NCBI GenBank assembly: GCA_003280445.1
Contig: QCEW01000004.1
Span: 18,330 to 82,329, forward strand
DNA from: Prochlorococcus sp. AG-363-A03
GTDB lineage: Bacteria > Cyanobacteriota > Cyanobacteriia > PCC-6307 > Cyanobiaceae
DNA: 64,000 bases
Direction of reading: 5' to 3'
Shown: in pieces, positions 42,039-44,123 of the stretch
How positions within the stretch are numbered: the stretch's first letter is position 1
Layout: every line of letters starts with the position of its first letter
The notes under the pieces: generated by a model
What the model saw: only the letters and a program-made list of their open reading frames with translations
What the model was told of the DNA's origin: nothing
Databases searched by the model: none
Program-made: the position numbers and the translations under genes

Positions 42039-42347
42039 AACAATTTATGGGTTTAAACGATACGTTCCTCAATCCAAATATTATTTCTTACCCCCTTCTC
42101 CTAAAATGATTAGGACTATTTAAATACTTATTATCATCGTGATTGATATCGATTTTAATAAGCTAAAATTATCGAAAATCCTTCGTTATTATTATGTGAG
42201 AAATCGTAAATTTTGATGATCACAAAATGATCACCACGTTTTGGCAAAACCACAATGATTTTGATTCATCACTTAGTTGTTCCCAGCATCATAAGTTGTC
42301 TTTTCCCAAGTCAATTTTTGATGTTCCTCTAACTCTATATTGACCTT

Positions 42348-42554
42348 TTGAATTTGAAAAGAGCCAGCATATTTCCACGTTATTATTCAATACAATTCAT
42401 GATATTTATGACTTATTTATCAGTATATATTTGCATTTCATATGATTCACTCCACCCTTTAAATACAACAGTTCTTACTCTAGGTGTGTTATCAATTCCA
42501 ACAGTGGCTAATTGCATCAATCTAGAAGAATATAATTTTGATTCTTATCTTTGA
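42348..42554 (+). CDS. hypothetical protein, 68 aa
   Basis: ORF with two hydrophobic stretches. Confidence 0.4.
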   Translation: MNLKRASIFPRYYSIQFMIFMTYLSVYICISYDSLHPLNTTVLTLGVLSIPTVANCINLEEYNFDSYL

Positions 42555-42861: not shown

Positions 42862-43062
42862 CTATTCTTCCCAACCTTCCTCTGCCTTATCAAGTAAATC
42901 CTCAACAGTATTGTCGAAAGTTTCAGCAACTGACCTCAACATTTTTGAAATAGTCTCATCTGGGCAAGCTAGATCTTTTTGAATACCTTCAGCGCAGTCT
43001 TTAATTTCATCCCATGCATCTGTTAGGACTTGTGAATCTACTGGTTTCCAATCTTCAGTCAT
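42862..43062 (-). CDS. hypothetical acidic protein, 66 aa
   Basis: ORF track. Confidence 0.6.
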   Translation of the reverse strand: MTEDWKPVDSQVLTDAWDEIKDCAEGIQKDLACPDETISKMLRSVAETFDNTVEDLLDKAEEGWEE

Positions 43063-43198: not shown

Positions 43199-43354
43199 AT
43201 GAAAATCTTAATACAAGGAATTCAAGAGCTGCGAGCGAAAGCTGAGGCATCTCTTGATAAGACTACTCAGTTGCAACAGGCGTTAGCGCAACTCGAGGCA
43301 AACCTATCTAGAAAGGAAAACCAAAAGATCAGCGAGAAGTCACAGAAAGAGTAA
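43199..43354 (+). CDS. 51-aa coiled-coil-like protein, cassette copy 1 (A1)
   Basis: MKILIQGIQELRAKAEASLDKTTQLQQALAQLEANLSRKENQKISEKSQKE; homologous to 43831..43986. Confidence 0.72.
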   Translation: MKILIQGIQELRAKAEASLDKTTQLQQALAQLEANLSRKENQKISEKSQKE

Positions 43355-43446
43355 TCATTCATATGTCAAGAAGTTTCAAACTTATAATTTCTATTTACGT
43401 ATTATGAAAAACACCTATAAATAATAATAGAGAATAGTTTTTCATC

Positions 43447-43506
43447 ATGCTTTTACCTAAGCCAGTTAGACCTGTTGATTCTGAGAAGAAAGGTAAAGAT
43501 GATTAG
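43447..43506 (+). CDS. 19-aa microprotein, cassette copy 1 (B1: MLLPKPVRPVDSEKKGKDD)
   Basis: N-terminus MLLPKPVRP identical to ORF 44061..44123 in the same relative position. Confidence 0.55.
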   Translation: MLLPKPVRPVDSEKKGKDD

Positions 43507-43830
43507 ATATTGAAAGAAATTTCTTCATCAATCTAAGATTTATACACAAATTTATTGATATTTAGGAACATAGGTAACGATTATTCCCTTTTTTTGTAGC
43601 ATATATTGAATTCTAGTTCACAAGTTAATATAAGTTTATATTTACTTAGGTTGCTAATTAAAAATTAAACCATTCTAGCCAACAGATAAACACACTTAAT
43701 ATAGTTTTATCAAAAGATAATGAATTCATCTATTGACATTAAGAAATTCTTTGCCAAATTTATTCAGTGTTCTTCTTATCAATTTTCCCTTTCATTTTAA
43801 GGTAAAAATTATTTTTTGTTCATCTTATCT

Positions 43831-43986
43831 ATGAAAACAGCATCTAAAGAACTACAAAAACTTAGATCAATGGCAGAGACTTCTTTGAATAAGACAGCTG
43901 AACTACAACAAGTGCTGGCTCAAATTGAAGCCAACCTCTCTAGAGCTGAATCACAAAAAGTTACTGAAAAGACAAACCAAAACTGA
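43831..43986 (+). CDS. 51-aa coiled-coil-like protein, cassette copy 2 (A2)
   Basis: MKTASKELQKLRSMAETSLNKTAELQQVLAQIEANLSRAESQKVTEKTNQN; about 28/51 identical to A1, no gaps. Confidence 0.72.
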   Translation: MKTASKELQKLRSMAETSLNKTAELQQVLAQIEANLSRAESQKVTEKTNQN

Positions 43987-44060
43987 ATTCTAAATTCGTA
44001 TAATTAAATGCAGCATCCCAAGTAAAAAGTGCTAAAAAAAGATAAGATAAATTTATTTCA

Positions 44061-44123
44061 ATGCTTTTACCAAAACCCGTTCGACCATTGCAGAATAATA
44101 ACAAAAATAAAAAAAACTCATGA
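44061..44123 (+). CDS. 20-aa microprotein, cassette copy 2 (B2: MLLPKPVRPLQNNNKNKKNS)
   Basis: N-terminus identical to B1. Confidence 0.55.
   Translation: MLLPKPVRPLQNNNKNKKNS

Follow-up and report, generated by a model that had tools for sequence, protein, structure and literature searches.

Cyanobacterial micro-proteins of fewer than 80 amino acids, represented by a Synechocystis set (PMC5126843) and by the regulators reviewed in PMC7760959, are the products of short, lineage-restricted genes; many reportedly have promoters of their own, and several act by binding a larger protein. Short transcripts with a conserved small open reading frame (ORF) are also on record, namely Yfr6 and Yfr9 of Prochlorococcus MED4, whose ORFs encode 33 and 44 aa (PMC2518516). 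In strain NATL2A, the short intergenic transcripts Yfr106-Yfr108 are specific to the low-light clade and were reportedly found in the sea, confirmed by northern blot and treated as non-coding (PMC7368042). In the literature searched, Yfr6/Yfr9 and Yfr106-Yfr108 are the nearest published objects that we found to the locus described here. Yfr103 (PMC5069720) was considered as the possible peptide mRNA and set aside, being about 300 nt long, strongly conserved in structure and present in Synechococcus too. The string MLLPKPV was not encountered in the published text searched.

The locus lies in a 64,000-nt stretch of DNA (hereafter the window) from a Prochlorococcus assembly of 1.37 Mb in 64 contigs, 77% complete. 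The initial annotation had proposed a duplicated two-gene cassette, each unit consisting of a 51-aa coil-like protein and a peptide with a shared nine-residue N-terminus. The four ORFs are indeed where they had been placed, all on the plus strand: copy 1 of the 51-aa protein at 43199-43354 and peptide 1 at 43447-43506, separated by 92 nt, then copy 2 at 43831-43986 and peptide 2 at 44061-44123, separated by 74 nt. The 51-aa products align without gaps, 28 of 51 residues being identical (55%), just as reported; the similarity exceeds chance, since copy 1 used as query against the whole genome retrieves copy 2 at E=8e-12. A degenerate DNA pattern for the nine-residue peptide has two matches in the window genome and also occurs in 29 more same-genus genomes; in a search over 149 genomes it was absent from every other genus sampled, and a reversed control pattern gave no match at all. 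When peptides 1 and 2 of the same genome are compared over their first nine codons, pS is 0.59-0.96 and pN 0-0.1. With silent sites so diverged and pN so low, the duplication must be old, and it is the protein sequence that has been kept.

No other element of the locus is as conserved as peptide 1 (19 aa, MLLPKPVRPVDSEKKGKDD). The sequence MLLPKPVRPVDSEKKGK, in some genomes altered at one or two places, is present in 30 of 41 same-genus genomes, that is, in 30 of the 30 that hold the locus. Among the 11 others, nine have no detectable trmL-like neighbour and two have the trmL-like gene near a contig end (partial in G031, 2.7 kb from the end in G023), so the absence of the peptide is best read as missing sequence. 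Residues 1-9, 11 and 14-17 are invariant across the 30 genomes and residues 10, 12 and 13 are changed in one to three of them; the last two positions are loosely held (D or E, then D, N or S), two genomes stop after residue 17, and the length ranges from 17 to 19 aa. G033, which we take to be strain NATL2A (hence our name low-light I for its genus group, g1), has the form MLLPKPVRPVDAEKKGKDS; the corresponding region there is about 895,530-895,710, minus strand. Mean variation at codon positions 1, 2 and 3 is 0.024, 0.002 and 0.231 over the 30 genomes, and dN/dS (Nei-Gojobori) is about 0.018, compared with 0.086 for copy 2 of the 51-aa protein. Of the single-base variants possible in the peptide, 27 of 34 silent ones are seen as opposed to 7 of 110 that would change an amino acid (p about 1e-11). 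This is the pattern of a coding sequence, and selection of such strength at the protein level makes it almost certain that peptide 1 is, as had been suggested, a translated gene.

Peptide 1 also has the transcription signals that a small-protein gene would have: a promoter in 30 genomes and a terminator in 27 of 30. The promoter (43394..43422, plus strand) comprises TTTACG (43394-43399), a 16-nt spacer and TATAAAT (43416-43422); the 30 genomes all have the two boxes, or a close variant, and the distance from these to the ATG hardly varies. Mean identity over the 80 nt 5' of the peptide is 0.895, as against 0.52 in spacer DNA further on. A scan for consensus sigma-70 promoters returned nothing above shuffled sequences and missed this one, its -35 box being TTTACG. 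Immediately upstream, the block CAAGAAGTTTCAAA (43367-43380, plus strand) forms near-invariant columns in a 27-genome alignment and overlaps an inverted repeat, AAGTTTCAAACTT (43371-43383, plus strand), the whole element spanning 43367..43383. Six genomes were checked for the block together with the TTTACG that follows it, and each has the combination only once, always at the peptide locus; from its conservation alone we propose it as a candidate regulator site. On the 3' side, mostly about 40-65 nt beyond the stop codon, stands a hairpin that runs into a T tract. Its stems differ in sequence with pairing kept (e.g., AAGAACATAGGTATGAAAACATACTTGTGTTCTTTTTT, AAGAGCATATATGCATTTGCAATATATGCTCTTTTTTT, GAGAATATAGGTATATATATACCTATATTCTCTTTTTTT), and the stretch that separates it from the stop codon varies in both sequence and length. 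The three exceptions are G011, G032 and the window genome itself, where the terminator position (43563..43595, plus strand) shows only a weak remnant of the hairpin (GGAACATAGG...CCCTTTTTTT); with its own terminator degraded, the peptide mRNA of this genome may read on toward copy 2. The predicted transcript should have a short leader and a total length of some 130-180 nt. Since the peptide has a promoter and a terminator of its own, co-transcription of unit 1 is not needed, and these elements make a separate monocistronic transcript very probable. A search of the window with Rfam returned one tRNA and nothing else.

The 51-aa protein is modeled by AF2 (copy 2) as one helix covering residues 2-50, with pLDDT 93.9, and its heptad a/d positions (8-11-15-18-22-25-29-32-36-39-43) have a mean hydropathy of +1.9 versus -1.5 elsewhere. 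It has no Pfam or NCBIfam match above curated cut-offs, only sub-threshold hits, and Foldseek found no fold match in the PDB, as is unsurprising for a lone helix. The protein is confined to Prochlorococcus: of the 59 genus groups sampled from the taxonomic family, it was found in two (g1, low-light I, and g18); this distribution was obtained with a search profile built from an alignment with small errors in some rows, and the alignment used for identity was read from the DNA. All named relatives with the same gene are Prochlorococcus (among them AG-402, AG-363, AG-436 and one MAG). The g18 genomes (1.4-1.8 Mb), which we read as high-light Prochlorococcus, have a single copy of 48-50 aa, located 3' of both pstB and a hydrophobic ORF of 29 aa, and lack the peptide. 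That hydrophobic ORF (MKNFPYLPFLIFAGAIITTATIGLPVFTS; L099:2037-2126, equivalents in L117-L125) lies between pstB and the 48-aa homologue, and a strongly conserved sequence, GTATAAATACCTATATAGT, is found 5' of it. Neither high-light strains nor other picocyanobacteria showed a tiny peptide in the vicinity of their trmL-like gene; no homologue of either product was found in viruses or other cyanobacteria, and no phage or viral-contig relative of the 51-aa protein. Peptide matches in another Cyanobiaceae genus (G304, G241, G403, G266, G186 and G045; E 0.3-1) share about 13 residues in GC-rich sequence; with no in-frame ATG and unrelated genes on either side, they were dismissed as chance. A single viral contig matched the peptide DNA pattern, and this too was attributed to chance, the contig being GC-rich and having the pattern in no ORF of at least 20 aa.

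Divergent relatives of the 51-aa protein exist at another locus. In three genomes only, a 58-aa membrane-protein gene (MGFTGNELMKAAEFLHIESSTGLF...) ends 1-2 nt before such a relative (L126, G030:C23:4942-5245; L127, G023:C21, minus strand; L129, G034:C1:847 kb, minus strand); the relative is truncated in G034, where the membrane gene also recurs at 567 kb. Elsewhere, a 44-aa ORF that shares the LQQVLAQI core (MKPLEDSNHLQQVLAQIQLN...) is nearly identical in four genomes (L100:3306-3440 in G000:C52, G033:C1:986590, G020:C1:1183528 and G037:C36:208). Upstream of the locus, on the minus strand, the window contains a gene for a 66-aa acidic protein (42862-43062), divergent from copy 1, that is 86% identical in the distant G030 and has no family match. 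A further set of mutually similar proteins of about 60 aa, sharing an (E/K)(Y/F)xEWL-type motif, is encoded at L114:3649-3834 (minus) and L114:4079-4258 (plus), both on the trmL side in G033, and at L100:1867-2034 (minus), on contig C52. Further out, at 42289-42520 (minus strand), the window has the pieces of a disrupted gene whose intact form is found in G033 (L114:8561-9103, 180 aa); its product resembles FMN-binding proteins of pyridoxamine-phosphate-oxidase type.

The members of the two units have fared differently. Almost every genome retains peptide 1 and copy 2; copy 1 and peptide 2 are variable. Copy 2, taken to start at the ATG at 43831 (an in-frame TTG further upstream would yield 56 aa), keeps its full length in 28 of the 30 genomes and is preceded by a TTGACAT box and downstream block (43733..43768, plus strand) with a mean column identity of 0.84, versus 0.52 in the preceding spacer, probably its promoter. 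The frame of copy 1 is intact in about 14 of 30 genomes and broken in about as many (about 14) by in-frame stops, frameshifts or loss of the start; the breakage is repeated, with 12 changes on a locus tree in which 4 of 26 inner branches are well supported, so that the number of losses is uncertain. Peptide 2 (20 aa, MLLPKPVRPLQNNNKNKKNS) has homologues in only eight genomes, which retain most of MLLPKPxRP and the KNKK tail, one of them with TTG for ATG. Its dN/dS of 0.23 over 17 codons indicates constraint, less than on peptide 1; the tree is too weak to tell whether it arose once. In G030 copy 2 is gone, and copy 1 is intact with peptide 1 and its terminator kept. In G004 copy 2 is truncated to 36 aa and copy 1 is a remnant; the peptide, its promoter and its terminator are all in place. 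The proposed duplicated cassette is thus upheld in one part only: the units stem from an old tandem duplication, and the genes have since been kept or lost independently. With copy 1 often broken, peptide 2 missing from most genomes and each gene type found without an intact partner of the other, the cassette is not supported as one functional unit. Read most simply, these sequences would point to two neighboring genes with separate transcription that were duplicated long ago, the spare copies being lost thereafter.

Other accounts of the locus deserve consideration. That the ORFs arose by chance in non-coding DNA, and owe their likeness to a recent duplication, is refuted for practical purposes: we found nothing in its support, the ORF lengths by themselves being unremarkable, and the silent sites of the peptide copies are near saturation with the protein sequence kept, and the codon-position pattern holds across 30 genomes. 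One could also envision a transcript that acts mainly by base-pairing and encodes the peptide in addition, as SgrS/SgrT does. Low-light-specific small RNAs are known from NATL2A (Yfr106-108, PMC7368042), and the RNA here would be short, with promoter and terminator of its own. However, conservation outside the ORF is limited to the promoter/leader and the shape of the terminator, with a variable 3' spacer; the short leader is conserved, but it overlaps the promoter region; silent sites of the ORF are free to vary, so that no RNA conservation independent of the codons is seen; and in the window genome the RNA folds no better than shuffled sequences (z -0.33). We regard such a dual function as quite improbable.

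Two further possibilities, each unlikely and each rated a shade above the base-pairing RNA, would link the peptide to the 51-aa gene. In a leader-peptide attenuator, translation of the proline-containing peptide (three prolines among nine residues) would set terminator formation and thereby read-through into copy 2, an idea that draws on the conservation, in most genomes, of the order promoter, short ORF, terminator, 51-aa gene. Yet copy 2 has its separate conserved TTGACAT box, and G030 keeps the peptide and its terminator with no copy 2 to regulate, although copy 2 lies downstream elsewhere. The sequence from stop codon to terminator varies in length and composition, and invariance extends over nearly the whole peptide rather than a stall site. 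The other possibility is that peptide and 51-aa protein bind or neutralize each other, as a functional cassette or a pair of the toxin-antitoxin kind. The genes are adjacent, co-duplicated and very small, and in 29 of the 30 peptide-bearing genomes one or both of the 51-aa genes at the locus are full length. Against this, the 51-aa gene occurs by itself in high-light strains, G004 keeps its peptide although neither 51-aa copy there is intact, and no spread into phages or viral contigs was found. The hydrophilic character of the peptide also sets it apart from type I toxins that act on membranes.

The explanation toward which we lean, with the odds judged slightly in its favor, is that of two separate small-protein genes, a stand-alone peptide and an adaptor, duplicated in tandem before the low-light I clade diversified. 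Peptide 1 would be encoded by a free-standing gene, 17-19 codons long, whose promoter gives a short mRNA that ends at the intrinsic terminator, and it might be made when an activator binds CAAGAAGTTTCAAA. The proline-rich N-terminus (LPKPVRP) and charged tail of this hydrophilic peptide suggest a soluble regulator that could bind in an extended conformation to some larger conserved protein, with LPKPVRP as the docking surface; this assignment is plausible but tentative, and falls somewhat short of an even chance. The 51-aa protein, a predicted single amphipathic helix, would form a coiled coil, probably a dimer, and its gene pairing in three genomes makes it conceivable, if rather doubtful, that it serves as adaptor for a small membrane protein. 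Once both genes had been duplicated, a single good copy of either would have sufficed, leaving copy 1 and peptide 2 to decay or diverge. It is tempting to speculate that the peptide represents a new kind of free-standing regulatory protein of 17 residues, universal in low-light I and using a proline-rich docking motif to steer a core process; we consider this possible, though unlikely. If true, the gene would be among the shortest bacterial genes known with such strong selection and its own promoter and terminator.

Routine annotation passes over genes as short as 17-19 codons, and here such a gene is the best-conserved feature of its locus in an abundant clade of marine phototrophs. Being present in every low-light I genome with an assembled locus, and not found in high-light ones, it is a candidate for ecotype-specific regulation. 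To our knowledge, no characterized cyanobacterial regulator is as short as 17-19 aa. Peptide 1 has no sequence relation that we could find to the cyanobacterial micro-proteins, and it is confined to one Prochlorococcus clade. Whereas the RNAs of Yfr6 and Yfr9 are conserved over their full length, beyond the ORF, and overlap another non-coding RNA, the peptide 1 locus is conserved in promoter/leader, ORF and terminator shape only. The 51-aa protein is one more orphan small protein; the peptide is unusual in its length, in the strength of selection and in being a stand-alone gene, and still falls within the known range of bacterial micro-proteins.
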